In this document: positions 19,613 to 58,299 of the stretch, piece after piece
How positions within the stretch are numbered: the first letter of the stretch is position 1
Layout of the letters: each line of letters opens with the position of its first letter
Position numbers and translations under genes: made by a program
Origin: Thermodesulfobacterium sp.
Lineage (GTDB): Bacteria; Desulfobacterota; Thermodesulfobacteria; Thermodesulfobacteriales; Thermodesulfobacteriaceae
Direction of reading: 5' to 3'
DNA: 64,000 nt
Assembly (NCBI GenBank): GCA_017656385.1
Contig: JACDNX010000004.1
Location: 1 to 64,000, forward strand
Notes under the pieces: model-generated
Database searches by the model: none
What the model saw: the letters and a program-made list of their open reading frames with translations, nothing else
Told to the model about the DNA's origin: nothing

Positions 19613-20386
19613 TTATATTTTTAGATTGAAATATTTAACTGCATTTTCCGTGGTTTTTTCAGCAACAGTTTCCAAATCAATATTTTTTATTTCTGCCACC
19701 TTTTGAGCTGTATATATTAAAAAAGCTGGCTCATTTCTCCTTCCTCTTACAGGATGCGGAGCTAAAAAAGGACAATCAGTTTCTAACACCAATCTGTCTA
19801 TAGGAATAAATTTAACAGCAGATCTTAAATTTTCAGCCTTCTGAAAGGTTACAACCCCCGGGATAGAAATCAATCCTCCTAAATCAAGAATTCTGGAAGC
19901 AATAAACTTATCTGAAGTATAACAATGAAAAAGAAGCTTTAATTCTATATAATTTTTTAAAATGTTTAAAGCTTCATTCCAAAATGAATCTTCTCCTCTC
20001 AAATGAAGAATAACAGGCTTACTATATTTTTTAGCAAGTTCTAACTGTCTTATAAAATGTTCTATTTGAACTTCCTTAGGTGAATACTCCTTCACCCAGT
20101 CAAGTCCAATTTCTCCTATGGCACACACTTTGTCTATATTTTCCTCTAAAAATTTGTAATCTCCTTCTCCAATTTTTTTGGTTTCGTGAGGATGAAATCC
20201 AATTGCAGGTTTAATAAATTCAGGATATAACTCCGCAAGTTCCAGGGCTTTTTTGTTAGTATTTACATTTATTCCAACAACTACAACTTGACAAACCAGA
20301 TTCTCTTTTGCTCTTTTTATTACATTTTCTAAATCTTTCTTAAATTCTGGAAAATTTAAATGTGCATGAGTATCAATAAATCTCAT
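19613..20386 (-). CDS. tatD: TatD family metal-dependent deoxyribonuclease
   Basis: A TIM-barrel hydrolase with FIDTHAHLNF (HxH metal site), AIGEIGLDW, PVILHLRG, LLFHCYTSD and VLETDCPFLAP, all characteristic of TatD DNases. I chose the ATG at 20386, directly before FIDTHAHL, because it overlaps the stop of the permease gene by 4 bp (ATGA). A longer frame starting at 20467 would lie largely inside that gene. Length is 257 residues, normal for the family. Confidence 0.92.
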   Translation of the reverse strand: MRFIDTHAHLNFPEFKKDLENVIKRAKENLVCQVVVVGINVNTNKKALELAELYPEFIKPAIGFHPHETKKIGEGDYKFLEENIDKVCAIGEIGLDWVKEYSPKEVQIEHFIRQLELAKKYSKPVILHLRGEDSFWNEALNILKNYIELKLLFHCYTSDKFIASRILDLGGLISIPGVVTFQKAENLRSAVKFIPIDRLVLETDCPFLAPHPVRGRRNEPAFLIYTAQKVAEIKNIDLETVAEKTTENAVKYFNLKI

Positions 20387-50649: not shown

Positions 50650-50677
50650 TTGACAAAAAGTGAGTTGGGATTAAAAT
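50650..50677 (+). promoter_or_regulatory. Probable promoter of the Mrp-flavodoxin-ferredoxin-regulator operon
   Basis: TTGACA (50650-50655), a 16-base spacer and TAAAAT (50672-50677). It lies inside a possible 5' extension of the Mrp reading frame. This and the strong ribosome-binding site further on show that translation starts at 50731, not here. Confidence 0.6.
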
Positions 50678-50730: not shown

Positions 50731-51897
50731 ATGATTAAAAAAGAAAAAAGTTTTATTATGGAACAACAGGATAAAAAATTAAGAGAACAACTCTCTAAGA
50801 TAAAACATAAAATTCTCGTTATGTCTGGGAAAGGAGGGGTAGGAAAAAGCACTGTTGCAGTTAATGTGGCAGTAGGGCTTTCTTTACAGGACCTTATGGT
50901 AGGTCTTCTTGATGTGGATCTTCATGGGCCTAATGTCCCTAAAATGCTCGGTGCAAGAGATCTAAAACTTTCAAGGAAACCTGACGGAAGACTGGGAGCT
51001 ATTAAATATTCTCCCAATCTCAAGTTTCTTTCCATTGAACCCTTTCTTCCTTCAGAAGATACCGCTGTTATCTGGAGAGGACCTATTAAACATTCAGCTA
51101 TAAGACAGTTTATAGGGGACATTGATTGGGGAGAGCTTGATTATCTGGTTATTGATGCACCTCCTGGAACAGGAGATGAACCTTTGACAGTTGCTAAAAC
51201 TATGCCTGATGCCTACGCACTTGTAGTAACAACTCCTCAGGAAGTCTCTCTCATTGATGTTAAAAAAGCAATAAAGTTTTGTCAAAAAATAAAGCTGAGA
51301 ATTCTTGGTATAGTTGAAAATATGAGCGGTTTTATTTGCCCACACTGTGGAAAGCCTGTAGATATATTTAAAAAGGGAGGAGGGCAAAAACTGGCAGATG
51401 AATGGGGAGTGAGATTTTTAGGTCGCATTCCTATAGATCCACGAATAGTAGATACTGGAGATGCTGGAAAACCTCTAATAGCTGCCTATCCAGAAAGTAC
51501 AACAGCTAAAGCTTTTGAAGAACTGGTTAGAAATATCATTGTTGCAACAGAAGAAATGAAAAAAGATATCTTAGAAGAAAAATTTATGAGAATAGCTGTC
51601 CCCATAAGCTCTCCTTCTAAAATTGAATCTGATCCAGAAAAATTTGAACTTTTTGCAATCTACGATATAGAAAACAATAAAATTTTGGTAAAAGATGTAG
51701 TTAAAAAAGCTGAAAATCAAGGCTTAATTGACTTTCTAAAAGAACAAGTAGCTACTCATATTCTGCTTTTTGATCCTCCCAAAGATCTGGCAGACTATAT
51801 TTCTCAAAATGAAATAAAAATTTTAGTTACAGACACCTCAACTGAATCTCCAGATAATTTAATTGAAGACTTTTTAAAAGAAAGACAACTACATTAA
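50731..51897 (+). CDS. Mrp/NBP35 family ATPase fused to a NifX/NifB-type C-terminal domain
   Basis: A P-loop iron-sulfur carrier or scaffold. The N-terminal part shows VMSGKGGVGKSTVAVN (deviant Walker A), DVDLHGPNVPKMLG, DAPPGTGDEPL and the cluster-binding CPHCGK. The C-terminal about 105 residues (MRIAVPISSPSKIESDPEKFELFAIYD in parts) resemble the dinitrogenase iron-molybdenum cofactor family (NifX/NifB-C-like). The start at 50731 is set by GAGGAGGTGAG at about 50716. It is the first gene of an operon with a flavodoxin-like protein, a ferredoxin and a sigma-54 activator. Confidence 0.88.
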   Translation: MIKKEKSFIMEQQDKKLREQLSKIKHKILVMSGKGGVGKSTVAVNVAVGLSLQDLMVGLLDVDLHGPNVPKMLGARDLKLSRKPDGRLGAIKYSPNLKFLSIEPFLPSEDTAVIWRGPIKHSAIRQFIGDIDWGELDYLVIDAPPGTGDEPLTVAKTMPDAYALVVTTPQEVSLIDVKKAIKFCQKIKLRILGIVENMSGFICPHCGKPVDIFKKGGGQKLADEWGVRFLGRIPIDPRIVDTGDAGKPLIAAYPESTTAKAFEELVRNIIVATEEMKKDILEEKFMRIAVPISSPSKIESDPEKFELFAIYDIENNKILVKDVVKKAENQGLIDFLKEQVATHILLFDPPKDLADYISQNEIKILVTDTSTESPDNLIEDFLKERQLH

Positions 51898-51906
51898 TTA
51901 TGGTAG

Positions 51907-52323
51907 ATGGATATCTATTACTTTACCTACACGGGAACCTCCAAAAAAATAGCAGAGTGGTTAAGTAAAAAATTAAATATAAGACCAAAAGAAATAAAAA
52001 CCTATAAATTACCTTATTTAATATGGCTTTTTCTTTCTTTTTTCCCCTATTTACCTTTTAAAGCTACTTTTGATCCCCCTTCTAATAAAACTATAATTCT
52101 TTGTTTTCCTAAATGGACTTTCAACTGTCCCCCTGTAACATACTTTTTAAAAAAAGTACATTATGAAAAACTTTTTTTAGTAATAAGCTACAAAGGTTGG
52201 GGAGAAAAACTTTACTACCGTTTATATTACAAACTTACCTATAAAAAAACAAAAGAAATAAAAATAATTTTTATAAAGAAAAAACTTTGGGAAGCTGGGA
52301 TTTTTCCTGAAATAGAATTTTAA
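51907..52323 (+). CDS. Small flavodoxin-like protein
   Basis: The 138-residue protein begins YYFTYTGTSKKIAEWLSKKL. This fits the N-terminal strand and FMN phosphate-binding loop (TxTGxT/S) of flavodoxins. A later strand, TIILCFPKWTFNCPPVTYFL, fits the second loop. The rest is lysine-rich and divergent. It is only 9 bp after the Mrp gene and 78 bp before a ferredoxin gene, so an electron-transfer role is likely. The family call rests on the loop and strand pattern. Confidence 0.55.
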   Translation: MDIYYFTYTGTSKKIAEWLSKKLNIRPKEIKTYKLPYLIWLFLSFFPYLPFKATFDPPSNKTIILCFPKWTFNCPPVTYFLKKVHYEKLFLVISYKGWGEKLYYRLYYKLTYKKTKEIKIIFIKKKLWEAGIFPEIEF

Positions 52324-52347: not shown

Positions 52348-52599
<252 letters not shown>

Positions 52600-52604
52600 G
52601 CAGT

Positions 52605-54128
52605 ATGAAAATTTCTTCTCAGGAACAATTAAAAAGAAAAACAAAAGAACTTACTGCACTCTTTGAAATTAGCAGAATATTAAGTTCTTCTTTTGACCTA
52701 AAAAATAATCTTTACAGAGCTTTAAAGACTATTTCAGAAATTCTTGATATGCAAAGAGCAACCATTACTCTTTATGACCACGACACAAATACTCTCCAAA
52801 TTGCTGTAGCTTACGGATTGACAGATGAGCAGATAGCAAAAGGAAAATATAGTGTAGGGGAAGGAATAGTTGGAAGGGTTTTTCAAACAGGAGAACCCAT
52901 AATAGTTCCTAATATAGGAAAAGAACCTCTTTTTCTAAATAGAACAGGTGCAAGAATTAAAAAGGACAACATATCTTTTCTCTGTGTGCCTTTAAAAATA
53001 GGAGACGAAGTGTTGGGAGTTTTTTCTGTTGACAGAATTTTTAGCAGTGAGATTGATTTGAAAGAAGATATAAGGGTGCTTAACATAATTGCCACACTTA
53101 TTACTCAGTATTTAAAGCTTTATCAGTTATTTAACAGAGAAAAAACAGAAAGAGAAAAATTAACTTTAGAACTTAAAAAGAGATACAGTTTGCGAAATGT
53201 AATAGGAATTTCAGATAAGATGCAAGAGGTTTTTAAAACTGCCTTAAAAGCTGCCAAAACTAAAGCCACTATTTTACTCACAGGGGAGTCAGGCACAGGA
53301 AAGGAGCTTATTGCTAAGGCCATTCATTTTGAAAGTGATAGAAGTAAAGGCCCTTTTATAGCCATAAATTGTGCAGCCATTCCTGAAAATTTACTTGAAG
53401 CAGAACTTTTTGGATATGAAAAAGGTGCCTTTACAGGAGCTTTGATTTCAAAACCCGGTAAATTTGAGTTAGCAAATGGAGGAACTATTTTCTTAGATGA
53501 AATAGGGGATCTGCCTCTTCATTTACAGGCAAAGCTTTTAAGAGTGATTCAGGATAAAACCTTTGAAAGGATAGGGGGAACTAAGTCTATAAAAGTAGAT
53601 ATAAGAATTATTGCAGCAACCAATAAGGATCTTGAGGAGATGGTTAAAGATGGCAGTTTTAGAGAAGATCTTTATTTTAGATTAAATGTAATTCCTATCT
53701 ACCTTCCTCCTTTAAGAGAAAGGAAGGAAGACATTCCCCTTTTAATTGACCACTTCCTTAAAAAGTTTAACGAAGAATATGGCAAAAACATAAATATAAC
53801 TAAAGAAGCCATGGAGAAACTTGTAAACTATTCTTGGCCCGGGAATGTAAGGGAACTGGAAAATACCATAGAAAGACTGGTAATTCTTGCTGAGGGAAAT
53901 GAAATTACCTTGAATGATCTTCCTTTCTACATAAGACAGGAAGATGATACCAGAATAACATGTGTAAAACTTAAAGAGACTCTTCCTTCTCAACTTGAAC
54001 TTATTGAGAAAAAAGCCATAAAAGAGGCTTTAAAAGCCTGCAATTACAATCAAACAAAAGCTGCTAAAATGCTTGGATTAACTAAAAGACAGATTAATTA
54101 CAAGATTAAAAAATACGGATTAATGTAA
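52605..54128 (+). CDS. Sigma-54-dependent transcriptional activator with GAF domain (NifA-like layout)
   Basis: The 507-residue protein has a GAF sensor domain (about 20-170, [24 protein letters not shown]). The AAA+ activator domain follows (about 190-430): Walker A GESGTGKE at about 227-234, the sigma-54-contacting GAFTGA and Walker [11 protein letters not shown], then GNVRELEN. A Fis-type helix-turn-helix stands at the end ([24 protein letters not shown]). There is no receiver domain, so it is not phosphorylated like NtrC. It is encoded with redox proteins and 1.2 kb before glnA, whose upstream region carries a sigma-54-like promoter. Confidence 0.93.
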
Positions 54129-54237: not shown

Positions 54238-55002
54238 TCAAAGTTTGGGAAATGATGGTAATCTCCTTTTATGTTCACTTTTTTTTATTAGCTTTTCTAC
54301 ATATAAAACTCTTTCTAAAGGTATATTTAAATCTTCTGCTATCTTTTCCTTTTGCATTTTTAAGTCTACCAATCTATAGAGAATTTTATCAAGCAGATTG
54401 TATTCTATTCCTAATTCATCTTCATCTGTTTGTCCTGCCCATAAACCTGCAGTAGGTTTTTTTGAAATAATTTTCTCAGGTACTTCCAATATTTTAGCTA
54501 ATTCCCTTACTTCTGTTTTATATAAACTCAAAAGTGGAGCTATATCACTTGCTCCATCTCCCCACTTGGTAAAATATCCTACTAAAAATTCGGTTCTATT
54601 TGATGTCCCGAGAACGAAATAATTTTTAGCATTTGCAATTCCATAAAGAATAACCATTCTACTACGAACCATTAAATTGCCCTTGGCTAATTTATCTATT
54701 TTAAAATTTAAAGCTTTTTCAAATTCATCAACTATATTTTTAATACTTATAGTCTTATAGTATATTCCCAGATGTTTGCATACTAAAATAGCATCTTCCA
54801 GTTCCTTATTTTGATAATATGGCATTATTATTCCTAAAACTTTTTTTTTACCTAAGGCTTTTACAGCAAGAGAAGCTGCGGTTGCGCTATCAATTCCACC
54901 ACTAATTCCTAAAACTACCCCACTGACTTTACTATTTTTTATTTTTTTTCTTATAAAATTAACGATTTTTTCAACTATAGCGTTATAATCAAGTTTTCGC
55001 AT
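54238..55002 (-). CDS. nadE: NAD+ synthase, ammonia-dependent type
   Basis: Makes NAD from deamido-NAD. The 254-residue protein has the ATP pyrophosphatase loop [58 protein letters not shown] and [13 protein letters not shown]. There is no N-terminal nitrilase (glutaminase) domain, so ammonia is the direct donor. It is divergent from glnA, with a 290-bp control region between them. Confidence 0.96.
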
Positions 55003-55047
55003 AAATTTTTCCTATGATTATTTTAGCATTTTAAGAAATTTCTAAAA

Positions 55048-55076
55048 AATTTATTACAAATTTTATAAACTGTCAA
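55048..55076 (-). promoter_or_regulatory. Possible promoter of nadE
   Basis: On the minus strand a perfect TTGACA (55071-55076), a 17-base spacer and TAAATT (55048-55053). The -10 is weak. It lies 12 bases from the palindromic site shared with the glnA side. Confidence 0.4.
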
Positions 55077-55087
55077 ATTTATGTGTT

Positions 55088-55123
55088 GATACAAATTTGT
55101 ATTTAAAATAACAATTTTGTATC
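55088..55123. promoter_or_regulatory. Palindromic site in the nadE-glnA control region
   Basis: ATACAAATTTGTAT (55089-55102) is a perfect 14-base palindrome. Together with CAATTTTGTATC (55112-55123) it also forms a wider inverted repeat with 12-base arms (GATACAAATTTG at 55088-55099, one mismatch) around a 12-base spacer. The centre is about 65 bases upstream of the -24 element of the proposed sigma-54 promoter, a fitting distance for an activator site. Confidence 0.5.
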
Positions 55124-55166
55124 AAAAGTTTTATTTTAAACTCTTTTAACTTTCTATTTTGCAGTA

Positions 55167-55182
55167 TTGGCATAAATTTTGT
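55167..55182 (+). promoter_or_regulatory. Probable sigma-54 promoter of glnA
   Basis: TTGGCA, a 6-base gap and TTGT keep the fixed -24 GG / -12 TG spacing of sigma-54 promoters (consensus TTGGCAC, N5, TTGC). The -12 motif has T for C. It predicts transcription starting near 55193, about 100 bases before the glnA ATG. The same region shows no convincing -35/-10 pair for the main sigma factor on this strand. Confidence 0.5.
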
Positions 55183-55292
55183 TTAAGAGTTTTAAATAGC
55201 TAAAAATATTTAAAGCCCATAGATTAATAAATAGCTTTTTAAAGTATCAATTTGTGGTAAAATTTTTAAAAAACTTCAGGAGGAATTTCCTT

Positions 55293-56624
55293 ATGGAGGG
55301 AACTATCAGAGATAAAAAAGATGTTATGGAAGCTATCAAAGCAAATAATGTAAAATTTGTGATGTTATGGTTTACTGACGTTCTTGGGCAGTTAAAAAGT
55401 CTTGAATTGCTTGTAGATGAATTAGAGGTAGCTTTTGAAGAAGGTATGGGTTTTGATGGATCTTCTATCGAAGGTTTTGCTCGTATTGAGGAATCGGATA
55501 TGCTTGCTTTTCCTGACCCCCACACTTTTGCTATTCTACCTTGGGAGTATAAAGGATATAAAATCGCACGTATGTTTGCTGATATTTACCTTCCGGATTT
55601 AACGCCTTATTCTGGAGATTCAAGATATATCCTTAAGCATAACTTAGAAAAAGCCAAAGAAATAGGATATACTTTTTATGTAGGTCCAGAGCTTGAATTT
55701 TTTATCTTTAAAAACAACAAACAACCAGAATTTTTAGACGAAGGTGGATATTTTGATTATTCTTTAGATATAGCTGAAAATTTTAGAAAAGAAGTAATTC
55801 TTGCTTTAGAAGCTATGAACATCAAAGTAGAGTACTCACATCATGAAGTTGCCCCTTCTCAACACGAAATAGACCTTCGATATACTGAAGCCCTTCAAAT
55901 GGCAGATATTGTGGTAACGGTAAAAGCTATAATTAAAGAGGTTGCAAAAAGAAATGGTATATATGCTACTTTTATGCCCAAACCTGTTTATGGTATAAAC
56001 GGGTCTGGAATGCATATTCATCAAAGTCTTTTTATAGGTGAACAGAATGCTTTTTTTGATCCTAAAGATCCTTTTCGTATTTCTCAAACTGCAAAATACT
56101 ATATTGAAGGTTTGCTTACACATATAAAAGAAATTACTATCATACTTAATCAGTGGGTCAATTCCTATAAAAGATTAGTCCCTGGATATGAAGCCCCTGT
56201 AAATATCTGTTGGGGACACAGAAATCGCTCTTCTCTTATTAGAGTTCCGATGTATAAACCTGGTAAAGAAAAAGCTGTAAGGATTGAACTTAGGTCTCCT
56301 GATCCAGCTTGTAATCCTTACTTAGCATTTGCCTGTATGTTAGGAGCAGGTTTAGAAGGTATAAAAAAACAATACTCTTTAAGAGAACCTATAGAGAAAG
56401 ATGTTTATCTTCTTTCTGATGAAGAAAAAAAAGCTTTGAATATAGAGTATCTTCCTGGAAGTTTGATAGAAGCTATCGAAATTGCTGAAAAAAGTGATCT
56501 TCTTAAAAAGACTTTAGGAGAAAAAATTTTTAATTTCATAATCCAAAATAAAAAACTTGAATGGGATATGTATAGAGTAAAAATCACATCTTTTGAATTA
56601 GAAAGATACTTGCCTATTTTATAG
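55293..56624 (+). CDS. glnA: Glutamine synthetase, type I (GSI-alpha)
   Basis: Makes glutamine from glutamate, ammonia and ATP. The start at ATG 55293 follows AGGAGG (about 55279); an in-frame GTG at 55254 lacks a site. The 443-residue protein has MGFDGSSIEGFARIEESDM, GPELEFFIF, HHEVAPSQHEIDLRY, GSGMHIHQSL and NICWGHRNRSSLIR. Its length and the absence of the NLYDLP adenylylation loop place it in the alpha group. Control is therefore probably transcriptional or by feedback, not by adenylylation. The upstream region has a sigma-54-like promoter and a palindrome. Confidence 0.97.
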   Translation: MEGTIRDKKDVMEAIKANNVKFVMLWFTDVLGQLKSLELLVDELEVAFEEGMGFDGSSIEGFARIEESDMLAFPDPHTFAILPWEYKGYKIARMFADIYLPDLTPYSGDSRYILKHNLEKAKEIGYTFYVGPELEFFIFKNNKQPEFLDEGGYFDYSLDIAENFRKEVILALEAMNIKVEYSHHEVAPSQHEIDLRYTEALQMADIVVTVKAIIKEVAKRNGIYATFMPKPVYGINGSGMHIHQSLFIGEQNAFFDPKDPFRISQTAKYYIEGLLTHIKEITIILNQWVNSYKRLVPGYEAPVNICWGHRNRSSLIRVPMYKPGKEKAVRIELRSPDPACNPYLAFACMLGAGLEGIKKQYSLREPIEKDVYLLSDEEKKALNIEYLPGSLIEAIEIAEKSDLLKKTLGEKIFNFIIQNKKLEWDMYRVKITSFELERYLPIL

Positions 56625-56658: not shown

Positions 56659-58299
56659 ATGTTTGAATGGCGTAAAACTAATGATGCAATTGGTACAACC
56701 AATCGTGGAAATCCTGCAGAATCTGGTCTTTGTACTCTTTGTAGATGTGATTGTAAAGGTAAATGCGAAGTATGGATGTCAAGCTTGGTAGGTAGGAAGC
56801 TTCTTTATCCACGTGATTTTGGAAAAGTCACAGCTGGAAGTGCTAACACTTTCCATGTTGGGGTTTCTTATAATTCTATAAGAATTGTAGGAAGACTCTA
56901 TGGTGCTAAAGGCTTACCCAAAGGTGTTACAGATTCTCCTGATGATTGCATTTTTCCTAATGTCAGCATAGAAGGAAATTTTGGAGCCAAGGTAAAAACT
57001 AAATTTAGAATACCCATTATAAGTGGTGCTATGGGTTCTACTTTCATTGCTGCTAAATATTGGGAACCCTTAGCAATAGGAGCTGCTTTAGCTGGATTCC
57101 CGCTGGTTATTGGAGAAAATGTAGTAGGAGTAGATAAAAATTCAGTAATTGAAAAAGGAAGAATTAAAAAAGCTCCTGAGCTTGAAAGAAGAATTGATAT
57201 TTATAAAAAATACTATGATGGATATGGTGCTATACTTTTTCAGATGAATGTAGAAGATACCAGAAATGGAGTAGCAGAATATATTATAGAAAAATATGGA
57301 GATGATATTATTGTAGAATTAAAATGGGGACAAGGAGCTAAAAGTATTGGTGGAGAAATTCAAGTAAAAGATCTTGAATATGCTCTATTTCTCAAAAAAA
57401 GAGGTTATATCATAGATCCAGATCCTGAACTTCCAGAAGTTCAGGAAGCCTTTAAAAGAGGCGCTATAAAATCTTTTGCAAGACATAGTAGACTCGGTTT
57501 TACTAATGCCAGAACTACAGAAGAAGCTATGGAATTTTTCTATAAAGAAGTAAAAAGATTGAGAAAACTTGGTTTTAAGAGAATTACCTTAAAAACAGGG
57601 GCCTATGGAATGGAAGCACTTGCTCTTGCTATAAAAGTAGCAACAGAGGCTGAACTTGACCTTTTAACCATTGATGGGGCAGGTGGTGGAACAGGAATGA
57701 GTCCATGGAACATGATGGAACACTGGGGTGTACCTTCTGTTTACCTTCATTCAAAAGCTTATGAATATGCTACTATCCTTGCTTCTAAAAAAGGAAAAGT
57801 TGTTGATATGGCTTTTGGTGGTGGTTTTGCCAGAGAAGATCATATATTCAAAGCATTAGCTCTTGGTGCACCCTTTGTTAAGCTTGTATGTCTGGGAAGA
57901 GCACTTCTTATACCATGCCACTTAGGTTCTAATATTGAAGGTGTACTTAGACCTGAGAGAAAAGAAGCAGTTAATGGAAATTGGAATGAATTACCACCTT
58001 CTGTAACAGCTATAGGTAAGACCCCTGAAGAAATTTTTGCTTGCTATTATGAAGTAGAAAAGAAAGTAGGTAAAAAAGAAATGAAAAATATACCTTTTGG
58101 AGCTATTGCTCTTTATACTTACATTGATAAATTATCTGCAGGACTTCAACAACTGATGGCTGGTGCAAGAAAATTCAGTCTTTCAGCAATTTCACGTTCA
58201 GATATTGTAGCTGCAAATAAAGAAACTGCTGAAATTACAGGGCTTCCCTTTATCACTGAAGCCGAAGATGACTTAGCTAAAAAAATTTTAGAACTGTAG
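56659..58299 (+). CDS. Glutamate synthase FMN-binding domain protein (archaeal-type GltB central domain)
   Basis: The 546-residue protein carries the FMN/iron-sulfur synthase domain of glutamate synthase: ELKWGQGAKSIGGEI, TIDGAGGGTGMSPW, GGGFAREDHIFKALALGA and the following cluster region. It lacks the N-terminal glutaminase and the C-terminal GXGXG domain, which must be separate proteins elsewhere. The N-terminus has a tight cysteine cluster (C25, C28, C30, C32, C36 in LCTLCRCDCKGKC) that could hold an iron-sulfur centre. GGAGG lies before the ATG, 34 bp after glnA, so both are in one nitrogen-assimilation operon. Confidence 0.9.
   Translation: MFEWRKTNDAIGTTNRGNPAESGLCTLCRCDCKGKCEVWMSSLVGRKLLYPRDFGKVTAGSANTFHVGVSYNSIRIVGRLYGAKGLPKGVTDSPDDCIFPNVSIEGNFGAKVKTKFRIPIISGAMGSTFIAAKYWEPLAIGAALAGFPLVIGENVVGVDKNSVIEKGRIKKAPELERRIDIYKKYYDGYGAILFQMNVEDTRNGVAEYIIEKYGDDIIVELKWGQGAKSIGGEIQVKDLEYALFLKKRGYIIDPDPELPEVQEAFKRGAIKSFARHSRLGFTNARTTEEAMEFFYKEVKRLRKLGFKRITLKTGAYGMEALALAIKVATEAELDLLTIDGAGGGTGMSPWNMMEHWGVPSVYLHSKAYEYATILASKKGKVVDMAFGGGFAREDHIFKALALGAPFVKLVCLGRALLIPCHLGSNIEGVLRPERKEAVNGNWNELPPSVTAIGKTPEEIFACYYEVEKKVGKKEMKNIPFGAIALYTYIDKLSAGLQQLMAGARKFSLSAISRSDIVAANKETAEITGLPFITEAEDDLAKKILEL

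Follow-up and report, generated by a model that had tools for sequence, protein, structure and literature searches.

The 290-bp gap between nadE and glnA very probably contains the control region of an ammonia-assimilation operon, at which a one-component NifA/Nlh1-like activator encoded nearby would bind a pair of dyads and drive glnA and an adjoining glutamate synthase (GOGAT) gene via sigma-54. The gap lies in a 64-kb stretch of DNA, referred to below as the window. This explanation is preferred because the dyads and promoter recur in 17 control regions, the activator gene is linked to them and all are lost jointly in one relative (G009); because the dyad pair is unique in the genome and the same layout is found elsewhere ahead of ammonium transporter genes and glnB; and because rpoN is present, the GAFTGA motif of the activator is intact and P-II, an ammonium transporter (Amt) and any regulator over the NtrC cut-off are missing from what the genome searches detected.

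Genes and control elements at the locus

The genes at this locus are as follows.

50752-51897, plus strand: Mrp/ApbC-type iron-sulfur carrier ATPase (PF10609; MrpORP model 414 bits, cut-off 450); the start is probable, and the listed open reading frame opens at 50650
51907-52323, plus strand: flavodoxin-like protein (TYTGTSKK motif recognized by eye; no Pfam or NCBIfam match)
52402-52599, plus strand: 4Fe-4S ferredoxin (ferredoxin-type NCBIfam matches, all under cut-off)
52605-54128, plus strand: GAF-AAA+-Fis sigma-54 activator, NifA/Nlh1-like (Pfam GAF, Sigma54_activat and HTH_8)
54238-55002, minus strand: nadE, divergent from glnA (PF02540)
55293-56624, plus strand: glnA, type I glutamine synthetase (PF00120/PF03951; TIGR00653 508 bits, cut-off 429)
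56659-58299, plus strand: glutamate synthase (GOGAT) domain protein (PF01645)

The GOGAT gene is probably in one operon with glnA, from which it is separated by 34 bp. The ferredoxin gene stops 5 bp ahead of the activator gene. The activator gene ends 1.16 kb before the start of glnA, with only nadE in between, in agreement with the 1.2 kb given by the first-pass annotation of this DNA. The gap between nadE and glnA (19% G+C) has the following elements.

55086-55125: outer inverted repeat TTGATACAAA...TTTGTATCAA, covering both dyads (direct reading)
55089-55102: perfect 14-base palindrome ATACAAATTTGTAT, 65 bp upstream of the TTGGCA element
55091-55100: predicted operator dyad 1, core ACAAATTTGT, inside the palindrome (direct reading; dyad kept in relatives)
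55111-55120: predicted operator dyad 2, core ACAATTTTGT, 20 bp from dyad 1
55168-55182, plus strand: predicted sigma-54 -24/-12 promoter TGGCATAAATTTTGT (direct reading, shuffles, relatives)
55278-55283, plus strand: glnA ribosome-binding site AGGAGG (direct reading)

The first-pass annotation had reported TTGGCA-N6-TTGT with -24/-12 spacing at 55167-55182 and a 14-base palindrome about 65 bp upstream of it; the letters and coordinates of the former are right and the palindrome is exact. The larger inverted repeat that it described is also present and corresponds to dyads 1 and 2 together, the second of which (55111-55120) it had missed.

TTGGCA (55167-55172) is separated by six bases from TTGT (55179-55182), such that GG and G are 11 bp apart, a -24/-12-like arrangement. 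The definition of a sigma-54 promoter applied here was TGGCAY-N5-TTGCW, with GG and GC at a distance of 10 bp. The sequence TGGCAT-N5-TTGT at 55168-55182 agrees with this definition except at -12, where T replaces C. This -12 element, TTGT and not TTGC, counts against the preferred explanation; among relatives, the element is TTGC, TTGA or TTGT. The promoter is identical in G011, a relative with 98% identity. Transcription of glnA is predicted to start at approximately 55194, 12 bp past the -12 element. The predicted leader (55194-55292, approximately 99 bases) is longer than that of most relatives, exceeding that of G011 by 14 bases, and has no Rfam match to an RNA element. A sigma-70-like match to a nadE promoter (55076-55048, minus strand; 10/12, within chance expectation) abuts the dyads. 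One other strict -24/-12 match, TGGCACACACTTTGT (20119-20133, plus strand), is found in the 64-kb window, and there is no third.

To assess the statistical weight of these elements, the 290-bp gap was subjected to 20,000 dinucleotide shuffles. A perfect 14-base palindrome of some kind appeared in 18% of them and so the palindrome by itself is weak evidence. A loose -24/-12 match appeared in 0.6%, while two ACAANNTTGT dyads 16-32 bp apart were found in 0/20,000 shuffles, as was the full layout (dyad pair and -24/-12 element). The glnA gap is the only place in the 1.67-Mb genome with the exact dyad pair (reversed-pattern control: 0). The genome scan suggested by the first-pass annotation was informative in this form only: used as a probe, the single palindrome matched 33 places at up to 2 mismatches, equal to the reversed control, and was set aside. 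Because single dyad-like sites are no commoner than the control, only the dyad pair is informative. The earlier interpretation of the gap as a putative sigma-54 promoter with an activator site is supported.

Conservation and natural loss in relatives

In the family genomes that recover both on one contig, the activator gene adjoins glnA or GOGAT-glnA. The activator gene and glnA are divergent in g6, G003, G008 and G014, convergent in G002 and G004 and in tandem in G005, and the order is activator-GOGAT-glnA in G001, G007, G010 and G013. Within the family, 17 control regions at glnA or GOGAT-glnA have two ACAAWWTTGT dyads followed by a -24/-12 element. In G001, G007, G010 and G013, the operon begins with GOGAT, and the dyad pair and promoter are ahead of this gene instead of the glnA that follows it. 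Leave-one-out scores of the pairs are 19.6-32.8 (shuffled 99th percentile 12.3, maximum 18.5). The distance from the start of dyad 2 to the -24 element is 53-112 bp in the 17 regions. The spacing between dyads is either short (17, 17, 18, 19, 19, 19, 19 and 20 bp) or long (28, 29, 29, 29, 30, 30, 30, 30 and 30 bp), with no spacing of 21-27 bp among the 17 regions. These two classes (17-20 and 28-30 bp) are one helical turn apart, and the spacings fit placement of both dyads on one DNA face. Alignment with relatives, which the first-pass annotation had proposed as a check, thus recovered the dyads and the -24/-12 element; the outer inverted repeat at 55086-55125 is not kept as such and the two dyads alone are conserved. 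Outside of the family, G057 and G046 show the layout at glnA with a spacing of 31 bp.

The NifA site consensus, TGT-N10-ACA, happens to be present between the dyads in the window. It was set aside as a candidate NifA site because it is not conserved, relatives having other gaps between the dyads (7-9 or 18-20).

G001, G007, G010 and G013 also carry a second glnA-activator pair (L104, L112, L117 and L121) with a strong -24/-12 element and diverged dyads at the same distance. The recognition helix of the second-copy activator is similar despite this divergence, which counts against the preferred explanation. A specificity switch between the two activator copies was considered but not retained, as the recognition helices are too alike and the second-copy sites too degenerate for a conclusion. 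In the P-II-keeping relatives G003, G018 and G020, a second GAF activator is encoded in glnA-glnB-amt clusters (L106, L123, L124 and L109); it is most similar to Nlh2 (tested on G018). A Nitrospirae contig (L220) has a cluster that encodes P-II, Amt, GlnA, a GlnE-like protein and an activator with 61% identity.

No activator gene is present in G009 (92% complete). Its second glnA is accompanied by PhoH, Mrp, flavodoxin-like and ferredoxin genes in the same order as in G004, with the activator absent from between ferredoxin and glnA, and the dyads and -24/-12 element are missing at both of its glnA copies. By sequence comparison, this is a clean joint loss of the activator, the dyads and the predicted promoter. 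The same comparisons establish the dyad pair and predicted promoter in the window, their conservation and their linkage to the activator gene. The proposed one-protein circuit, with its predicted promoter and operator and the natural deletion in G009, offers a small system in which GAF-sensed nitrogen status could be tested. In G006, the activator is also absent and glnA has a weak, degenerate dyad pair (score 18.8) and no -24/-12 element; a weak pair where there is no activator counts against the preferred explanation, in an assembly that is fragmented.

Activator class, proposed circuit and alternatives

The source assembly is rated 100% complete (1.67 Mb). It encodes RpoN (205.8 bits, cut-off 22.8), the absence of which the first-pass annotation had named as evidence against its reading. 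Eight proteins have a full sigma-54 interaction domain. Besides the GAF activator, these are four response-regulator types and three others, and none of these seven reaches the NtrC cut-off. A P-II protein was not detected in the genome with a model that detects one in 13/14 control genomes, nor was an Amt; the best match to NifH has 25 bits (cut-off 394). Nif-bearing relatives are present within the family and order. With the seven other activators under the NtrC cut-off and P-II not detected, the earlier proposal that the neighbouring GAF activator may act in place of NtrB/NtrC is upheld.

The activator (52605-54128) has a GAF domain, an AAA+ domain with an intact GAFTGA motif and a Fis-type HTH, the domain composition of NifA. 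The first-pass annotation had correctly described it as having no phosphorylation domain: Pfam finds no receiver domain, and with 367.7 bits (cut-off 558.6) the protein cannot be classified as an NtrC. On the NCBIfam NifA equivalog model TIGR01817 it scores 543 bits (cut-off 528.85). Several other glnA-linked activators also exceed this cut-off, with scores up to 559. The nif-linked activators of the phylum score 498-515, under the cut-off, and so this model cannot separate glnA-linked from nif-linked activators. As seen with 52605-54128, L159, L168 and L170, TIGR01817 accepts glnA-linked activators from nitrogenase-free genomes and rejects the nif-linked ones tested from this phylum; a curated NifA model thus labels GS/GOGAT regulators as nif-specific. 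In an unrooted tree of 57 rows, the nif-linked activators form a separate clade (support 100/100) and the window activator is outside of it. Its GAF domain is most similar to that of Aquifex Nlh1 among solved structures (4g3k, E-value: 1e-28), followed by Nlh2 and then NifA. Given this match and a genome without nif genes, the protein can be described as Nlh1-like.

Aquifex aeolicus Nlh1, for which GAF structures are available (4g3k and 4g3w), has been speculated to act in nitrogen assimilation and not fixation, and its ligand is not known (PMC9866876). Like Nlh1, the window protein is a GAF-AAA+-HTH sigma-54 activator of a thermophile; it comes from another phylum, its target promoter, operator and conservation are identified here by comparison, and the likeness described is that of the GAF domain and the domain order. 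The GAF domain of Azotobacter vinelandii NifA binds 2-oxoglutarate (PMC8219145) at approximately 60 micromolar (PMC9866876). The window activator shares with NifA its domain order, GAFTGA motif and a passing TIGR01817 score, but differs in its nifH-free genome, its GS/GOGAT target, its operator of paired ACAAWWTTGT dyads and its position outside of the nif-linked clade. In Desulfovibrio vulgaris, operons of nitrogen metabolism are the predicted targets of the one-component sigma-54 activator DVU1949; no conserved sigma-54 promoter is found near its gene and the regulon was inferred otherwise (PMC4641369). The two proteins, compared by description only, are alike in being one-component sigma-54 activators with a predicted nitrogen role. 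Desulfovibrio has P-II genes, whereas none was detected in the window genome. In Geobacter sulfurreducens, of the same or a near phylum, glutamine synthetase is likewise under a sigma-54-dependent promoter (glnB-glnA, with primer-extension support), but P-II is kept in the operon and the activator was not the subject of that study (PMC2725144). In the enteric NtrB/NtrC-glnA system, too, the sigma-54 promoter of glnA is preceded by enhancer dyads; here, in contrast, the linked activator has no receiver domain and neither an NtrC over the cut-off nor P-II is detected. The NtrC site differs in sequence from the ACAAWWTTGT dyads.

Sigma-54 promoters require an ATP-driven activator bound upstream. 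In the proposed circuit, the one-component GAF-AAA+-Fis activator would bind the two dyads on one face of the DNA, oligomerise and loop to RNA polymerase-sigma-54 at 55168-55182, where its ATP hydrolysis would open the promoter of the glnA-GOGAT operon. We strongly infer the link between this regulator and this operator. The GAF domain would be the nitrogen/carbon sensor. Because no P-II, Amt or NtrC-grade regulator is detectable, a signal that acts directly on the GAF domain is probable. This signal can reasonably be expected to be a metabolite; 2-oxoglutarate is the leading candidate, a choice that is itself tentative.

Several alternatives were weighed against this circuit. Since seven other sigma-54 activators are encoded and the sites of Fis-type activators are not assignable from sequence alone, one of the four response-regulator types or three others might bind the dyads, with the GAF activator a mere neighbour. 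We consider this improbable: the GAF activator has stayed linked to glnA through many rearrangements and was lost jointly with the dyads in G009, and no other activator qualifies as an NtrC. The dyads also abut the sigma-70-like nadE match, and the AT-rich genome has many single dyad-like sites, as would be expected if the dyads were bound by a repressor of nadE, glnA or both, the -24/-12 element accidental and glnA expressed from a sigma-70 promoter. It is very hard to reconcile this with a -24/-12 element that accompanies the dyads in 17/17 regions at 53-112 bp and is lost along with them in G009, or with the four genomes in which dyad pair and promoter have both moved to GOGAT.

The first-pass annotation had tied nitrogen assimilation to a possible redox signal through the ferredoxin and flavodoxin-like neighbours, and this suggestion was not sustained. 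Mrp and flavodoxin-like genes accompany the activator in G000, G012, G002 and G004, and do so without the ferredoxin in G001, G007, G010 and G013; neither is beside the activator in G005, G003, G008, G014 or g6. General redox coupling is unsupported because these neighbours are limited to one subgroup within the genus, where the ferredoxin is itself often absent, and coupling via ferredoxin/flavodoxin was rejected as the linkage is not conserved. The 5-bp distance between the ferredoxin and activator genes and, in four relatives, the dyad pair ahead of a gene for a small, cytochrome c-like CxxCH protein are points in favor of a GAF domain that senses redox state through such neighbours, but this is unlikely, as the activator-glnA link persists without them in most relatives and G009 retains the ferredoxin with the activator gone. 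Finally, the passing NifA equivalog score and the nif-bearing relatives in the family and order would suit a leftover NifA whose role at glnA is secondary to a lost nitrogenase. There is little to recommend this reading, as nif-linked activators have their own 100/100 clade apart from the glnA-linked ones (unrooted tree) and nifH-free genomes actively maintain the dyads, the promoter and the linkage.

It is possible, and not far from probable, that a single NifA-like protein replaces the whole P-II/NtrBC circuit in genomes that have lost P-II, Amt and nitrogenase, with the GAF domain alone reading the carbon/nitrogen state (by 2-oxoglutarate or another metabolite) and setting GS/GOGAT through an operator with two helical spacings. 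Few nitrogen-signalling proteins are as widespread as P-II, as the control genomes above illustrate, and several genus and family members without it still keep conserved control elements at glutamine synthetase. This is a candidate function for NifA-like proteins in bacteria without nitrogen fixation. Judged by the literature searched, the two-spacing operator, the target assignment and the P-II-free setting are new.

The layout at other genes and in the wider phylum

The exact layout of dyad pair and promoter was searched for in 395 genomes of the phylum, of which 15 were positive (control matches: 0). Outside of the family, it is found ahead of ammonium transporter genes in G118, G324, G138 and G260. 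In G114, it precedes a gene for a Peripla_BP_5 protein that probably serves urea uptake. In G035, a member of the same order, the dyad pair and promoter are ahead of glnB. Some matches in the phylum, such as that in G297, have no evident nitrogen role, which counts against the preferred explanation. In one distant genus (L181-L184), the layout is ahead of a solute-binding protein gene (SBP_bac_6).

In the family member G024 (L156, 1501-1611), a dyad pair and -24/-12 element are ahead of a CN-hydrolase gene adjoining glnA, the product of which is probably a glutamine-dependent NAD synthetase; in the window, it is nadE that is transcribed divergently from glnA. Four relatives (L158, L153, L145 and L146) have dyad pairs with a spacing of 21-23 bp ahead of a gene whose product is a small, exported protein with CxxCH (81-106 aa), assigned to no Pfam family; a -24/-12-like element is present in 3/4. 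In G005 (L157; G005:C1, approximately 1256300-1257670), a dyad pair and -24/-12 element are aimed at a P-II gene, with an IS110-like transposase in between. G005 is without Amt, and this arrangement may represent a step on the way to losing P-II.
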